From positions 1 to 64,000 of the forward strand of contig CASWVG010000002.1 in the NCBI GenBank assembly GCA_949472775.1: a stretch of 64,000 nucleotides of DNA, read 5' to 3'. This document shows positions 32,631 to 38,852 of the stretch, in pieces (the first letter of the stretch is position 1; each line of letters begins with the position of its first letter). The notes under the pieces were generated by a model, which was not told where the DNA came from, did not search any database, and worked only from the letters and a program-made list of their open reading frames with translations. Position numbers and translations under genes: made by a program. The DNA is from an uncultured Lachnospiraceae bacterium (GTDB lineage: Bacteria > Bacillota > Clostridia > Lachnospirales > Lachnospiraceae).

Positions 32631-32642
32631 CGGAAATGGTTG

Positions 32643-32651
32643 TGGTATGAT
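32643..32651 (+). promoter_or_regulatory. Extended -10 promoter for the amino-acid ABC operon
   Basis: TGG followed by TATGAT, just past the terminator; -35 weak. The open frame that begins at 32640 covers it, so the coding start must be later. Confidence 0.4.
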
Positions 32652-32693
32652 AGAGCGGGCGTGGATGTAGGAAATGGAAAGGATGAAAAACGG

Positions 32694-33383
32694 ATGGCAG
32701 AGTGGGCAGCAAATTTCAGTGATCTGTTTTATAAATGTTTTATCAGGGAAGACCGTTATAAGCTTCTTCTGAGCGGCATCGGCGTGACGATCAAGGTATC
32801 GCTTCTGGCGATCGTCATCGGTATTCTGATTGGCATGGTGATTGCCACATGCAATCTGTCAAAGAAGAAACTGCTTCGGTTTATCGGAGGTGTTTATACG
32901 GACGTGATCCGGGGGACGCCCTCGGTGACACAGCTTATGATAATCTATTTTGTCATCTTTGCCACGGTGCCTTTGGACAAATGGATCATTGCAGCCATTG
33001 CTTTTGGAGTCAACTCCGGCGCCTATGTGTCCGAGATTGTCCGGGCGGGCATTCTGTCAATTGATAAGGGGCAGACGGAGGCAGGAAGGTCCCTGGGGCT
33101 TTCCGCATTCCAGACCATGAGCCGGATTGTGGTGCCGCAGGCGGTCAAAAATATTTTTCCCGCACTGTGCAATGAGTTCATTGTGCTGATTAAGGAAACC
33201 GCCATTGTCGGGTATGTGGGGCTGATGGATATCCAGAAAGCGGGAGACTTCATCAAGAGCGCAACCTTTATTGCATTTATGCCGTTAATCGGAACCGCGG
33301 TGATCTATTATGTGCTGATCAAAATACTGACACTGGCTCTCCGCCAGGTGGAGATACGGCTGAGGAAGGCGGATGCAAGGTAA
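32694..33383 (+). CDS. Amino-acid ABC transporter permease
   Basis: 229 aa from the ATG at 32694. HisM/GlnP-type inner-membrane subunit of a polar amino-acid importer. Seen: about five helices, GVTIKVSLLAIVIGILIG, VIRGTPSVTQLMIIYF, and the EAA loop EAGRSLGLSAFQTMSRIVVPQAVKNIFPAL that contacts the ATPase. The frame runs back to a TTG at 32640, but that lies within the likely promoter. First gene of permease, ATPase, binding protein. Confidence 0.92.
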   Translation: MAEWAANFSDLFYKCFIREDRYKLLLSGIGVTIKVSLLAIVIGILIGMVIATCNLSKKKLLRFIGGVYTDVIRGTPSVTQLMIIYFVIFATVPLDKWIIAAIAFGVNSGAYVSEIVRAGILSIDKGQTEAGRSLGLSAFQTMSRIVVPQAVKNIFPALCNEFIVLIKETAIVGYVGLMDIQKAGDFIKSATFIAFMPLIGTAVIYYVLIKILTLALRQVEIRLRKADAR

Positions 33384-33444
33384 CCGTGTGAGAGGCAGTT
33401 TGGAATCTCACATGGGAGAATACCAGAAATGAGGTGTTCTCTGT

Positions 33445-34209
33445 ATGGAAGACAGATGGAAAAATCATGCTGACATGGAGAATGTGATGATAAAAGTCAG
33501 AAACTTACATAAAAAATTTGAAGATCTGGACGTGCTGAGCGGAATTGACGAGCACATCACGCAGGGAGAAGTGGTTGTGGTGATCGGACCTTCGGGATCG
33601 GGTAAAAGTACCTTTTTGAGATGCCTCAACCTGCTTGAGACGGTTACCGAGGGGGAAATTTATGTGGATGACGAGCTGATCACGGACCCGAAAGTGAATG
33701 TGAACCGGGTGCGTCAGAAGATGGGCATGGTATTCCAGCAGTTCAACCTGTTTCCCCATCTGACCATTATGGATAATATCACGCTGGCCCCGGTACTCCT
33801 TAAGAAAATGACGAAGGAGGAGGCGGTGAAGCGTGGGCAGGAGCTTCTGGAGCGGGTGAATCTGGGCGAGAAGGCGAACGCTTATCCGGCGCAGCTCTCC
33901 GGCGGTCAAAAGCAGAGAGTAGCGATTGCCAGAGCGCTTGCCATGGATCCTGAGATCATGCTGTTTGACGAACCCACGTCTGCCCTTGACCCGGAGATGG
34001 TGGGCGAGGTGCTGGATGTGATGAAGGATCTGGCCAGATCGGGCATGACTATGGTGATAGTCACCCACGAGATGGGCTTTGCCAAAGAGGTGGCATCCCG
34101 TGTGCTCTTTATAGATCAGGGTGTGGTTATGGAGAGCGGCACGCCGGAGGAAGTTTTCGGGAATCCCCAAAACGAGAGGACGAAAAATTTCCTGAGCAAA
34201 GTGCTGTAG
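33445..34209 (+). CDS. Amino-acid ABC transporter ATPase (GlnQ-like)
   Basis: 254 aa. Seen: Walker [11 protein letters not shown]-loop [13 protein letters not shown], signature [19 protein letters not shown], Walker [16 protein letters not shown]-loop IVTHEMGFA. Two starts have ribosome sites: 33445 (GAGGTG) and 33487 (GGAG), the latter giving the family's usual [11 protein letters not shown] beginning; the first 14 residues may thus be absent. Coupled to the permease upstream (61 bp) and the binding protein downstream. Confidence 0.93.
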
Positions 34210-34283
34210 ATGCGGCGGAGTCCGCAATGGACGGAGCGGTATCCGGGCTGTGACAAGGAGAATATGTGACTTGCGCGGGCGTA

Positions 34284-34311
34284 TTGTCCGTGGGGTGATA
34301 TATGATATAGG
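34284..34311 (+). promoter_or_regulatory. Putative internal promoter for the binding protein
   Basis: TTGTCC, 16 nt, TATAGG, 30 nt before the ATG at 34342. An extra promoter would raise the lipoprotein above the membrane subunits. Confidence 0.4.
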
Positions 34312-34341
34312 AAACAAGGAAATGCAGAGGAGGAACACATT

Positions 34342-35112
34342 ATGAAAAGGACAACAAAATTACTGACAATGACGCTCGCCGCAGTGGTGACGGCGTGCAC
34401 ACTGACGGCATGCGGCGGCTCTTCCAAGGGCGATGCGCTTACCTTCGGCACCAATGCGGAGTTCCCGCCGTTTGAGTATGTCACATCAAATGGTGCGATC
34501 GGCGAGTATGACGGGATTGACATGGCGATTGCAAAGCAGATCGCGGAGGACAACGGCATGACAGCGGCCGTGGAAAACATGGAGTTTGACTCCCTTCTGG
34601 TTGCCCTGCAGAATGGGCAGATCGACGCGGTTATCGCAGGCATGACGGCCACCGATGAGAGAAGGGAAACGGTAGATTTTTCCACGCCCTATTACACGGC
34701 GACCCAGGTTATGATCGTGAAAGAGGATTCTGACATCACATCGGCTGCGGATATGGCGGACAAGAAAATCTGCGTGATACAGGGTTACACCGGCGAAGTG
34801 TGTGTGCAGGATATGGGTTACACTTACGAGGCGTTCAAGAAGGGTACAGAGGCTGTCATGGAACTGACAAACGGCAAGTGTGACGTGGTTGTCATCGACT
34901 CTGCGACGGCGCAGAAATATGTGAGCGACAATGAGGGCTTAAAAATCGTGGAGGATCCGAGTGCATTTGAGTCCGAGGAGTACGCGATCGCGGTACAGAA
35001 GGGCAACACGGAGCTGCTTGACAAGATCAATAAGACCATTGACAAGATGCTGGCAGACGGCACGATCAATGAGCTGGCGGTGAAGTACACGGAGGAAGCG
35101 ACTGCTGAATAA
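34342..35112 (+). CDS. Amino-acid binding lipoprotein (SBP family 3)
   Basis: 256 aa. Seen: lipoprotein signal with the lipobox LTAC (Cys24), then the normal domain order: lobe 1 (FGTNAEFPPFEYV, YDGIDMAIAKQIA, VIAGMTATDERRETVDFSTPYY with the ligand-binding Arg), lobe 2 (CVIQGYTGEVCVQ, GKCDVVVIDSATA) and the closing helices (YAIAVQKGNTELLDKINKTIDKML). It would bind a polar amino acid outside the cell and dock on the permease. It serves as an internal standard for the permuted paralogue at 36479. Confidence 0.94.
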   Translation: MKRTTKLLTMTLAAVVTACTLTACGGSSKGDALTFGTNAEFPPFEYVTSNGAIGEYDGIDMAIAKQIAEDNGMTAAVENMEFDSLLVALQNGQIDAVIAGMTATDERRETVDFSTPYYTATQVMIVKEDSDITSAADMADKKICVIQGYTGEVCVQDMGYTYEAFKKGTEAVMELTNGKCDVVVIDSATAQKYVSDNEGLKIVEDPSAFESEEYAIAVQKGNTELLDKINKTIDKMLADGTINELAVKYTEEATAE

Positions 35113-35132
35113 TACATAGGAATGCAGAAATG

Positions 35133-35160
35133 GGGCGGCACAGATTTGTACCGCCCTATC
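35133..35160 (+). terminator. Hairpin after the first ABC operon
   Basis: GGGCGG / CCGCCC stem with a 12-nt loop. The T tract is poor, so termination may be partial. Confidence 0.45.
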
Positions 35161-35190
35161 TTGACGCAAGATACTTTCTCGTAGTAGTAT
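35161..35190 (+). promoter_or_regulatory. Sigma-A promoter for sstT
   Basis: TTGACG, 18 nt, TAGTAT, 40 nt before the ATG at 35231. Confidence 0.55.
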
Positions 35191-35230
35191 AGTGAAGTAA
35201 CCCGTAAATTTGCATAGAAATGAGGGAAGC

Positions 35231-36457
35231 ATGAAAAATGTGTGGGAGAAGTGGACAGGCATAAGTCTGGTCAAGAGAATTGTTGTGGGGTTGGTGATCG
35301 GTGTCATTCTGGCTCTTGTCGTGCCGGGAGCGTCAGGCATCGGCGTGCTTGGGGATGTGTTCGTAGGCGCGCTCAAGGGGATCGCGCCGCTTCTGGTATT
35401 CTTTCTGGTGATGAGTTCGCTCTGCAATGCGGGAAAGTCCCACGGCGGGGTGATCAGAACGGTCATCATTCTCTATATGTTCAGTACGGTGCTTGCGGCG
35501 GTGATCGCTGTTTTTGCCAGCATGGTATTTCCCGTGGAGATGGTGCTTGTGGACGCGGCTTCGGACGCCCCGGCGGCTCCCAGCGGTATTGTTGAGGTGC
35601 TTAGCACGCTGCTGATGAATGTGGTAAAGAACCCGGTGGATTCCCTGGTGAATGCGAACTATGTCGGCATTTTGTCCTGGGCGGTGCTTTTGGGCGTGGC
35701 ATTCCGAAACGCGGGAGAAGGGACGAAAAAGACGCTCGGGGATATTTCGGAGGCGATATCCAGGGTGGTTGTGGTTATCATCAACTTTGCGCCTTTCGGT
35801 GTGCTCGGACTGGTTTATACCAGTGTGACGGCGAGCGGTCTGGAGGCTTTCAGTGATTACGGCAAGCTGCTGATCCTGCTTGTGGGATGTATGCTCTTTA
35901 TCTACTTTGTGACGAATCCGATTCTGGTGTACTGGTGTATCCGCAAGAATCCCTACCCGCTCATCTTTAAGTGTCTGAAACAGAGCGCGATTACGGCTTT
36001 CTTTACAAGAAGCTCGGCGGCAAATATTCCTGTCAACATGAAGATCTGTGAGGAGATGGGACTGGATAAGGATACCTATTCCGTGACGATTCCGCTTGGC
36101 GCGACCATCAATATGGACGGTGCGGCGATCACCATTACAGTAATGACGATGGCGACTGCCTTTACGATGGGCATCAACGTGGATATTCCGACGGCGATTA
36201 TTTTAAGTCTGCTGGCGGCCCTCTCGGCCTGCGGCGCATCCGGCGTAGCCGGCGGTTCCCTGTTGCTGATACCGCTTGCGTGCTCGCTGTTCGGCATTCC
36301 GGATTCCGTATCTATGCAGGTGGTGGCGGTAGGCTTTATTATCGGGGTGATTCAGGACTCTGTGGAGACGGCGCTCAATTCTTCTTCCGATCTGCTGTTG
36401 TCGGCTTCGGCGGAGTTCAGACAGTGGCGGTTAGAGGGGAAAGAAATCAAATATTAA
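35231..36457 (+). CDS. sstT: Serine/threonine:sodium symporter SstT
   Basis: 408 aa dicarboxylate/amino-acid:cation symporter (DAACS) protein. Seen: WTGISLVKRIVVGLVIGVILAL, TRSSAANIPVNM (the serine-rich hairpin), GATINMDGAAITITVMTMA (the TM7 NMDG Na+-binding motif) and LSACGASGVAGGSLLLIPLACSLFGIP. These match SstT better than GltP. It takes up serine and threonine with Na+. The ATG at 35231 is preceded by GAGGGAAG. A permuted amino-acid binding protein gene starts 21 bp after its stop, probably on the same transcript. Confidence 0.92.
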   Translation: MKNVWEKWTGISLVKRIVVGLVIGVILALVVPGASGIGVLGDVFVGALKGIAPLLVFFLVMSSLCNAGKSHGGVIRTVIILYMFSTVLAAVIAVFASMVFPVEMVLVDAASDAPAAPSGIVEVLSTLLMNVVKNPVDSLVNANYVGILSWAVLLGVAFRNAGEGTKKTLGDISEAISRVVVVIINFAPFGVLGLVYTSVTASGLEAFSDYGKLLILLVGCMLFIYFVTNPILVYWCIRKNPYPLIFKCLKQSAITAFFTRSSAANIPVNMKICEEMGLDKDTYSVTIPLGATINMDGAAITITVMTMATAFTMGINVDIPTAIILSLLAALSACGASGVAGGSLLLIPLACSLFGIPDSVSMQVVAVGFIIGVIQDSVETALNSSSDLLLSASAEFRQWRLEGKEIKY

Positions 36458-36478: not shown

Positions 36479-37279
36479 ATGAAAAAGAAATTGGCAACGG
36501 TACTTGTGGCAGCAGTGGCTGTCTGCGGAACACTTTCAGGATGCGGCGGCGCGAAGGAGACGGCTGCGGATGCTGGAAACCGGGTGTATGCGGTGGAGGC
36601 AGGTTCTGCCGGAGAGGCGGCAGCCAGTGAGAAAGGCTTTCAGACCAATGTGGTGGCTTCCCAGGCAGATGCACTGATGGAGGTGGCTTCGGGCACTTCG
36701 GACGCGGCGATCATTGATCTTTTGATGGCGGGCGCCATGATCGGAGAGGGAACCAGTTACCCGGATCTGGTACATACGGATAAACTGACGACGGAGGAGT
36801 ACGGCGTCGGCTGCAGGAAGGGCTCTGATCTGGCTTCTTATATTAATGCCGTGTTTGCGCAGAGTTACGCAGACGGTTCTATGAAGGCGACGGCTGAAAC
36901 TTACGGTGTGCAGGAGGCCCTTGTGGAGCAGAAGGCCTGTGAATTTACGGCATCGTCTGCGGACAGCGATGTGGCTTATATTCAGGGCAAAGGTACGCTG
37001 ATTGTTGGTATTACGGAGTTTGAGCCGATGGATTACAAGGACGATTCCGGCGAGTGGATCGGCTTTGATGCGGATATGGCGCGTCTGGTTGCGGAGCAGC
37101 TTGGCGTGGAGGCACAGTTTGTGGTGATCGACTGGGACAACAAGATCATGGAGCTGGAATCCAAGAATATTGATGTTGTGTGGAACGGCATGACATTGAC
37201 TGACGAAGTCAAAAACGCGATGGAGTGTACCAATGCATACTGCAACAATGCGCAGGTGATTGTGGTTCCCGGCAAGTAA
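36479..37279 (+). CDS. Circularly permuted amino-acid binding lipoprotein (SBP family 3)
   Basis: 266 aa. Seen: lipoprotein signal with lipobox LSGC (Cys22). Then lobe 2 comes first (YAVEAGSAGEAAASEKGF at 37-54; ALMEVASGTSDAAIID at 65-80), next the normally C-terminal helices (TTEEYGVGCRKGSD at 104-117; YADGSMKATAETYGVQ at 130-145), a linker at 152-171, then the normally N-terminal lobe 1 (TLIVGITEFEPMDYKDDSG; WIGFDADMARLVAEQLGV; DVVWNGMTLTDEV), stopping at VIVVPGK where lobe 2 would normally begin. All parts of the fold are there once. The AC at 153-154 may be a remnant of the old lipobox. The usual ligand Arg after TDE is Val. GGAGGAG precedes 36479. Followed by its permease and ATPase. Confidence 0.88.
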   Translation: MKKKLATVLVAAVAVCGTLSGCGGAKETAADAGNRVYAVEAGSAGEAAASEKGFQTNVVASQADALMEVASGTSDAAIIDLLMAGAMIGEGTSYPDLVHTDKLTTEEYGVGCRKGSDLASYINAVFAQSYADGSMKATAETYGVQEALVEQKACEFTASSADSDVAYIQGKGTLIVGITEFEPMDYKDDSGEWIGFDADMARLVAEQLGVEAQFVVIDWDNKIMELESKNIDVVWNGMTLTDEVKNAMECTNAYCNNAQVIVVPGK

Positions 37280-37342: not shown

Positions 37343-37999
37343 ATGTTCTTTAGTGTGACACAATCGCTGTTGGACGGTCTGTTGACCACTTTTCAGATTT
37401 TTATTTTCACACTGCTCTTTTCGCTGCCGTTTGGGCTGGTGCTGGCTTTCGGCGCAATGAGCAGATGGAAAGCCCTGCGTGGGTTGATCCAGACGCTAGT
37501 GTGGATCATACGCGGCACGCCGTTGATGCTGCAGTTGATTATCATTTTTTACGGTCCCGGTCTGTGGCTTGGGCATAATATATGGAGCGGCAGCGAGGCG
37601 GGACGGATCACCGCCACGGTGGTGGCTTTCAGCCTCAACTATGCCTGCTACTTTTCCGTGATCTTCCGGGGTGGTATCGAAGGCGTTCCTGTGGGACAGC
37701 GGGAAGCGGGCGAGGTGCTTGGCATGACGAAGTGGCAGATCTTTTTTAAGGTCACCCTTTTACAGATGGTGAAGCGGGTGGTGCCGCCCATGTCCAACGA
37801 GATTATCACGCTGGTGAAGGACACGTCTCTGGCGCGGATCATTGCGGCGTATGAGCTTACTTTTGCGGGCTATTCCTTTATGAAGAGCAACGGGCTGACA
37901 TGGCCTCTCTTCTATACGGGTGTGTTTTACCTTTTGTTTGTGGGCCTTTTGACACTTTTGTTTAACTATATCGAGCGCAGACTGGACTACTTCAGATAA
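37343..37999 (+). CDS. Amino-acid ABC transporter permease
   Basis: 218 aa HisM/GlnP-type membrane subunit. Seen: LLDGLLTTFQIFIFTLLFSLPFGLVLAFG, WIIRGTPLMLQLIIIFYGPG, the EAA loop EAGEVLGMTKWQIFFKVTLLQMVKRVVPPM and a final helix pair. AGGAG lies before the ATG. Lies 63 bp after the permuted binding protein and 76 bp before the ATPase, so a complete importer of its own. Confidence 0.92.
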   Translation: MFFSVTQSLLDGLLTTFQIFIFTLLFSLPFGLVLAFGAMSRWKALRGLIQTLVWIIRGTPLMLQLIIIFYGPGLWLGHNIWSGSEAGRITATVVAFSLNYACYFSVIFRGGIEGVPVGQREAGEVLGMTKWQIFFKVTLLQMVKRVVPPMSNEIITLVKDTSLARIIAAYELTFAGYSFMKSNGLTWPLFYTGVFYLLFVGLLTLLFNYIERRLDYFR

Positions 38000-38075: not shown

Positions 38076-38852
38076 ATGGCAGTTTTAGAAGTAAAACATA
38101 TCGGAAAACATTTCGACTCTACGAGAGTGCTTGATGACGTGAGCTTTGATCTGGAGGAAGGGAGTGCGCTGGCGATCATCGGGTCTTCCGGCTCCGGCAA
38201 GACGACGCTCTTACGGTGTCTGAATTTTCTGGAGACGCCGGATCACGGTTCCATCACGGTGCGGGGCGAAACCCTGTTTGACGCGGATCACCCCGTCGCA
38301 GGGCAGGAGAAGGACCTGCGAACCAAAAGACTGCATTTCGGCATGGTCTTTCAGGCGTTTCATCTGTTTCCGCAGTACACGGCGCTTGAAAATGTGACGC
38401 TGGCGGAGAAGCTTCTGGCACAGGAGAAACCTGATTTTAAGCAGAAGAAAAAGGAAATTCTGGAGGAGATTGAGGCGCACGGGAAATTGCTCCTGGATCA
38501 GATGGGGCTTTCGGAGCGCATGGATCATTATCCCCACCAGCTTTCCGGCGGACAGCAGCAGAGAGTCGCCATTGCCAGGGCACTGGCGTTACAGCCGGAT
38601 ATCCTCTGTTTTGACGAACCCACCTCGGCTCTTGACCCAGAGCTGACGGGGGAGGTGCTAAAGGTGATCAGAGGGCTTGCCGAGAAGCATACGACCATGA
38701 TTATCGTAACCCATGAAATGAGCTTTGCCAGAGATGTGGCGGATCAGATTATTTTTATGGACGAGGGCGTGATCGTGGAGCAGGGCGATGCCAGACAGGT
38801 GATCGACCATCCGAAGGAGGAGCGGACGAGACAGTTTTTGACAAAATATTGA
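38076..38852 (+). CDS. Amino-acid ABC transporter ATPase (GlnQ/HisP-like)
   Basis: 258 aa. Seen: Walker A GSSGSGKTT, Q-loop MVFQAFHLFPQYT, signature [17 protein letters not shown], Walker [16 protein letters not shown]-loop IVTHEMSFARDVAD. A roughly 20-residue charged insert (QEKPDFKQKKKEILEEIEAHGK) before the signature is longer than in the other ATPase of this window. GGAGG stands before the ATG. Last gene of the unit, followed by a strong terminator. Confidence 0.93.
   Translation: MAVLEVKHIGKHFDSTRVLDDVSFDLEEGSALAIIGSSGSGKTTLLRCLNFLETPDHGSITVRGETLFDADHPVAGQEKDLRTKRLHFGMVFQAFHLFPQYTALENVTLAEKLLAQEKPDFKQKKKEILEEIEAHGKLLLDQMGLSERMDHYPHQLSGGQQQRVAIARALALQPDILCFDEPTSALDPELTGEVLKVIRGLAEKHTTMIIVTHEMSFARDVADQIIFMDEGVIVEQGDARQVIDHPKEERTRQFLTKY

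Follow-up and report, generated by a model that had tools for sequence, protein, structure and literature searches.

Why does a gene of the amino-acid binding protein family SBP_bac_3 encode its two lobes in the reverse of the usual order, and is that order natural? The question is raised by the open reading frame (ORF) at 36479-37279 (+) in a 64,000-nt stretch of DNA from an uncultured Lachnospiraceae bacterium (assembly GCA_949472775.1, contig CASWVG010000002.1; hereafter the window). The ORF is intact, starts with ATG and encodes 266 amino acids (aa). It very probably encodes the lipid-anchored substrate-binding protein (SBP) of a polar-amino-acid-type ATP-binding cassette (ABC) importer, a natural circular permutant of family 3 (Type II) that was cut at the first hinge, originated once in its subfamily and has reverted in at least one species, represented by genome G012 (G, L and C designate genomes, loci and contigs). 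The gene and its parts are as follows.

36479..37279, + strand: gene for a circularly permuted SBP_bac_3 lipoprotein with lobe 2 ahead of lobe 1 (profile matches, phmmer, reordering)
36479..36544, + strand: signal peptide and lipobox TLSGC with Cys22 (sequence; the Cys22 column is invariant in a 48-row alignment of permuted proteins)
36545..36583, + strand: short linker, aa 23-35, that tethers lobe 2, with a short helix at aa 29-33 in the structure model
36584..36931, + strand: canonical C-terminal half, aa 36-151, comprising lobe 2 and the C-terminal return segment (sequence comparison)
36932..36976, + strand: fusion linker from the old C-terminus to the old N-terminus, aa 152-166 (structure model, linker parse)
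36977..37276, + strand: canonical N-terminal lobe 1, aa 167-266, with the hinge strand VIVVPGK as last element (Pfam, phmmer)

With phmmer, residues 168-263 were aligned with residues 6-102 of TmArgBP (6svf) and residues 28-134 with residues 112-218, in swapped order. When the lobes were placed in canonical order, a single colinear match was obtained (query 4-201, chain 6-218). Likewise, the Pfam profile SBP_bac_3 (PF00497) matched the real order over positions 2-91 of 132 only (91.7 bits; gathering score 26.4) and the canonical order over positions 2-130 (97 bits). The lobe 1-lobe 2 order of SBP_bac_3 is absent from the protein, which carries both halves once and swapped relative to its canonical relatives, as a circular permutant does. 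These comparisons bore out a preliminary description made from the letters alone, according to which lobe 2 came first and lobe 1 last, ending in VIVVPGK. The same description had correctly recognized the intact lipobox and the normal order of the protein at 34342, the latter confirmed by its Pfam match.

Two finer points of that description did not hold. It had stated that all elements were present once, whereas the inter-lobe connector is gone: the connector has 19 aa in 30 of the 33 parsed canonical-order rows (39 rows, 6 unparsed; exceptions L095, L096 and L115) and has no counterpart in the permuted proteins. The fusion linkers of the latter have 14-20 residues. An Ala-Cys pair in the linker had been proposed as the old lipobox; this candidate was rejected because Cys occurred in only 17 of 75 parsed linkers (83 permuted rows, 8 unparsed) and by-eye inspection found no lipobox ahead of it.

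The permuted order recurs in many genomes. Full-length colinear matches with at least 79% identity were found in 51 of 145 genomes, among them the source genome; 50 of these belong to the genus and the other is G082. One more match, at 30% identity, was obtained in G092. Within the genus, 62 of 77 genomes matched at E<=1e-30: 50 with the permuted form, 11 with a distinct canonical core type that is 62-65% identical to the G012 query, and one, G012, with a canonical form close to the permuted one; the other 15 had no match. In a family draw, the permuted form was present in 9 of 397 genomes, 64 of which matched the canonical query L095 at E<=1e-60, and in a class draw in 2 of 391, both from the genus. 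The best 80 of 97 loci from a genome-contig collection comprised 61 permuted and 19 canonical ones. Altogether, the 150 fetched two-lobe loci comprised 111 permuted and 39 canonical ones (83 and 39 after removal of duplicates). Because the Pfam profile spans one half only of the permuted protein, similar proteins may go unnoticed.

Four carriers (Roseburia porci, Evtepia gabavorous, and strains 1xD42-87 and 0.1xD8-71) are not labelled as metagenome-assembled genomes (MAGs). Moreover, the ratio of nonsynonymous to synonymous substitutions (dN/dS) between the gene and four relatives was 0.016-0.077, and the gene is under purifying selection. A chimeric junction made during assembly or binning could be suspected in a source genome that is 84.6% complete and in 119 contigs. 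However, the orthologues share the order in dozens of independent genomes and in the four records that lack the MAG label, and purifying selection acts on the gene; misassembly was rejected as practically negligible. None of the observations that would have refuted the preliminary description was made: many relatives are permuted, and no signs of decay were seen.

Within this subfamily, a single permutation event is the best reading. For the trees, 8 of the 122 distinct rows were dropped for lack of a permease or ATPase, and removal of near-duplicates then left 94 rows. The long rows L129, L133, L105 and L128 were left out of one SBP-only test set and of the approximately unbiased (AU) test on permease plus ATPase, and L110 was additionally left out of the all-gene trees and a further AU test. 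A careful lobe tree was built from 49 chosen rows, which did not include L247, L249, L254 and L255. In the permease-plus-ATPase tree, the permuted proteins fell into one clade (value of 99 in a quick tree), which also contained three canonical rows, and by eye the fusion linkers were similar between Lachnospiraceae and Oscillospiraceae records. The permutation was probably made by tandem duplication and subsequent loss of the outer parts. The 150 two-lobe ORFs of the subfamily loci included no lobe-duplicated intermediate, which would suit fission-fusion, i.e., half genes that were once separate and later rejoined with their order swapped. The same comparison, however, revealed no two half genes standing apart, with a weak lobe-1-only match (35%) to an ORF upstream in L140 as the nearest case, and a tandem array of shifted phase in another subfamily (L247/L303) resembles the intermediate expected if the permutation arose by duplication. 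The reverted G012 gene, with its suggestive linker-like connector, also speaks against fission-fusion, which we regard as unlikely.

G012 (L115, L156) has the canonical order and is nested in the permuted clade, and its syntenic locus is best read as a natural reversion to the canonical order. In L156, compared with five permuted congeners, the lobes are swapped within the gene at 80-84% nucleotide identity. The longer matches of neighbouring genes are at 65-85% and those of permease and ATPase at 76-85%; the divergence of the G012 lobes parallels that of the neighbouring genes. When G012 was excluded as a target, permuted congeners matched its stretch of 7001 bp over 5391 bp, whereas the 11 canonical-core congeners matched 1811-2196 bp per locus, which corresponds to the operon apart from single short matches. 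Holding the canonical rows together was rejected by AU tests on the all-gene tree (p 0.0006), in a further test (p 0.003), on permease plus ATPase alone (p 0.026) and on the lobes alone in the careful tree (p 0.0275). Additionally, the G012 connector has 13 aa instead of the prevalent 19 and agrees, in register, with the lipobox-to-lobe-2 linker of its permuted relatives in 24 of 33 nt. Its score of 15 exceeded all 2000 shuffles against the best target (maximum 14) and the best canonical connector (12).

Some results weigh against a reversion. The SBP-only quick trees did not reject a single change (p 0.255-0.588), and in 200 shuffles the best score over all 111 permuted targets also reached 15, so the likeness of the G012 connector to a derived linker is suggestive only. 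G012 is also the one such case among the 77 genomes of the genus. It might accordingly be supposed that this gene was never permuted, or that a canonical gene was acquired by horizontal transfer. The SBP-only quick trees are too weak to decide; in one test set, the held tree outscored the free tree in two of three tests. The synteny with permuted congeners, the parallel divergence of lobes and neighbours, the four AU rejections and, suggestively, the connector make either supposition very improbable. A linker-to-linker repeat was also considered as the recombination site in eight permuted relatives of G012 and was rejected as weak (9-140 of 500 shuffles scored as high).

L095, L096 and L234 also have the canonical order, and their connectors are short, with 14 aa in each of the first two; this lineage was more likely never permuted. 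A second reversion was once favoured by the nesting of L095 and L096 in the permuted clade of the permease-plus-ATPase tree, by the nesting of the L095 type in the all-gene trees, by rejection of a never-permuted lineage (AU p 0.039) and by the short connectors. After L234 was added, the rejection was gone (AU p 0.41); permease plus ATPase alone gave p 0.138 and 0.169, the careful lobe tree placed L095 and L234 outside the permuted clade, and by eye the L234 connector resembles a shortened canonical one. The claim of a sure second reversion was withdrawn after the addition of L234 and the careful lobe tree, and we now hold such an event to be rather doubtful.

The gene in the window lies in the following setting.

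37343..37999, + strand: cognate ABC permease of the HEQRo type (profile match)
38076..38852, + strand: cognate ABC ATPase of the polar amino acid type (profile match)
35210..36457, + strand: upstream SDF-family (SstT-like) symporter, common to some permuted loci (profile match, locus comparison)

The gene is thus followed by the HEQRo permease and polar amino acid ATPase expected for SBP_bac_3. The preliminary description had suggested a search for orthologues with the same order and the same partners, and many were found: permease and then ATPase lie downstream in nearly all permuted loci, except that no ATPase was seen in L093 and L140.

The AlphaFold model of the protein was confident, with a predicted local distance difference test score (pLDDT) of 88.5 and a predicted template modelling score (pTM) of 0.80. 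Its list of elements equals that of the canonical L104 model in swapped order, a comparison made by eye only; Foldseek and VIA-align did not show the permuted structural match directly. The usual two-lobed fold is the most likely one for this protein. The new termini lie at the first hinge strand, the short linker bridges the old termini, and the membrane tether would pull on lobe 2 instead of lobe 1. The protein would then bind a ligand, close on it and dock on the permease, and it is most likely a normal importer binding protein tethered at lobe 2. The core of the preliminary description, a natural permutant that is probably functional and has its cut at the first hinge, is supported by the orthologues of the same order and operon, the purifying selection and the confident model.

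In the alignment with TmArgBP, GMTLTDEVKN of the permuted protein faces GMTITEERKK. The residue after GMT, usually the ligand carboxylate-binding Arg in family 3, is not Arg in this protein or in the canonical-order sisters examined; Val or another residue stands there across the subfamily in both lobe orders. The lack of the usual Arg in both orders suggests that the subfamily ligand may be other than a standard amino acid.

Permuted family-3 proteins also exist outside the subfamily. The weak G092 match is one of them; it retains the canonical Arg, and a permease and an ATPase of its own follow downstream (neighbours named by eye). Judged by the order in which profile positions were matched, the same hinge-1 cut was found in nine genomes (G092, G097, G391, G096, G1041, G1055, G387, G283 and G1091). 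In G387, G283 and G1091 (L241, L242 and L273), the permuted domain and an ABC permease, confirmed by Pfam, form one chain of 501-537 aa. L237, L239, L240, L243, L244 and L245 belong to this distant second group with the same hinge. In a second cut, hinge 2 and the C-terminal segment come first, followed by lobe 1 and lobe 2 (L246, L259, L261, L262 and L278-L282), in nine genomes (G1056, G138, G1074, G1038, G603, G630, G611, G636 and G582). A weak, divergent hinge-2-first gene lies from L102:7355 onward, in the same locus as a canonical gene. Two genes outside the subfamily are the following.

L237:3004-3807 (G092:C30): permuted family-3 gene, canonical Arg and lobe-2 helix kept (by eye)
L303:1961-4957 (G127:C26; also L247): shifted-phase array lobe2-[lobe1-lobe2]x2-lobe1, permease domain fused, ATPase gene next

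The G127 chain has 998 residues and three binding domains in shifted phase. A 146-genome set contained eight cases of the same cut, four of the second cut and one array; in the follow-up set, two of 27 matching genomes had no locus and were unclassified. AU tests on these groups were unrooted, the groups were defined with the data already in view, and the 49 rows were a chosen set. One clade for both hinge-1 groups was rejected (p 2.6e-54), which speaks for separate origins. The second hinge-1 group as one clade gave p 0.0015, and this group may represent more than one event, or one with losses. The second cut was compatible with one event (p 0.455). We consider it likely that the half order of family 3 is labile and reversible. 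On this view, two or more independent permutations took place at hinge 1 and one or more near hinge 2, the products being free, permease-fused or tandem proteins, and an orthologous locus returned to the canonical order on one or more occasions.

A natural circular permutation is usually taken to have happened once, in the distant past. In the present case, the lobes of permuted and reverted orthologues from a single genus reach 93% identity. With such near-identical natural pairs, and canonical sisters as a third arm, it can be measured how folding, binding and transport depend on the order of the lobes, the site of the tether and the wiring of the hinge. The Thermotoga ArgBP (6svf, 4prs) of SBP_bac_3 is homologous to the permuted protein in both halves and has the same kind of operon; the permuted protein differs in its swapped halves, the lost connector and the replacement of the usual carboxylate-binding Arg. 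In GlnPQ-type importers, too, binding domains of family 3, some of them in tandem, are fused to the permease; unlike these, L241, L242 and L273 fuse a permuted domain and L247/L303 has a tandem in shifted phase.

Natural permutation of binding proteins is already known from TpMglB-2 (Tp0684) of Treponema pallidum, described as a two-lobed, membrane-tethered ABC binding protein of 'Type Ic / Cluster Bc' that still binds and closes (PMC4990184). The present protein is likewise a natural, membrane-tethered and most likely two-lobed permutant. TpMglB-2, however, is a glucose protein of Type I that has its cut within the N lobe and a fourth cross-over (PMC4990184), whereas the present one is an amino-acid-type SBP_bac_3 protein of Type II whose cut lies at the hinge and for which closely related canonical sisters and a reversion exist; it falls outside Type Ic / Cluster Bc, with its Type I sugar fold and N-lobe cut. 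Among the matches listed in open-licence PubMed Central (PMC) text, a coverage without subscription papers and curated databases, TpMglB-2 was the only natural permuted binding protein, and we found no report of natural permutation in family 3 and none of a natural reversal. For TpMglB-2, the idea was raised that permutation suits membrane tethering (PMC4990184, Discussion), and the permuted and reverted pairs make it testable.

An Rfam scan of the window gave no match at gathering scores. Directly upstream of the permuted gene, 32640-36457 contains a canonical amino-acid ABC operon (permease, ATPase and binding protein) together with the SDF symporter; the ATPase was named by eye and by a match in the locus comparison.
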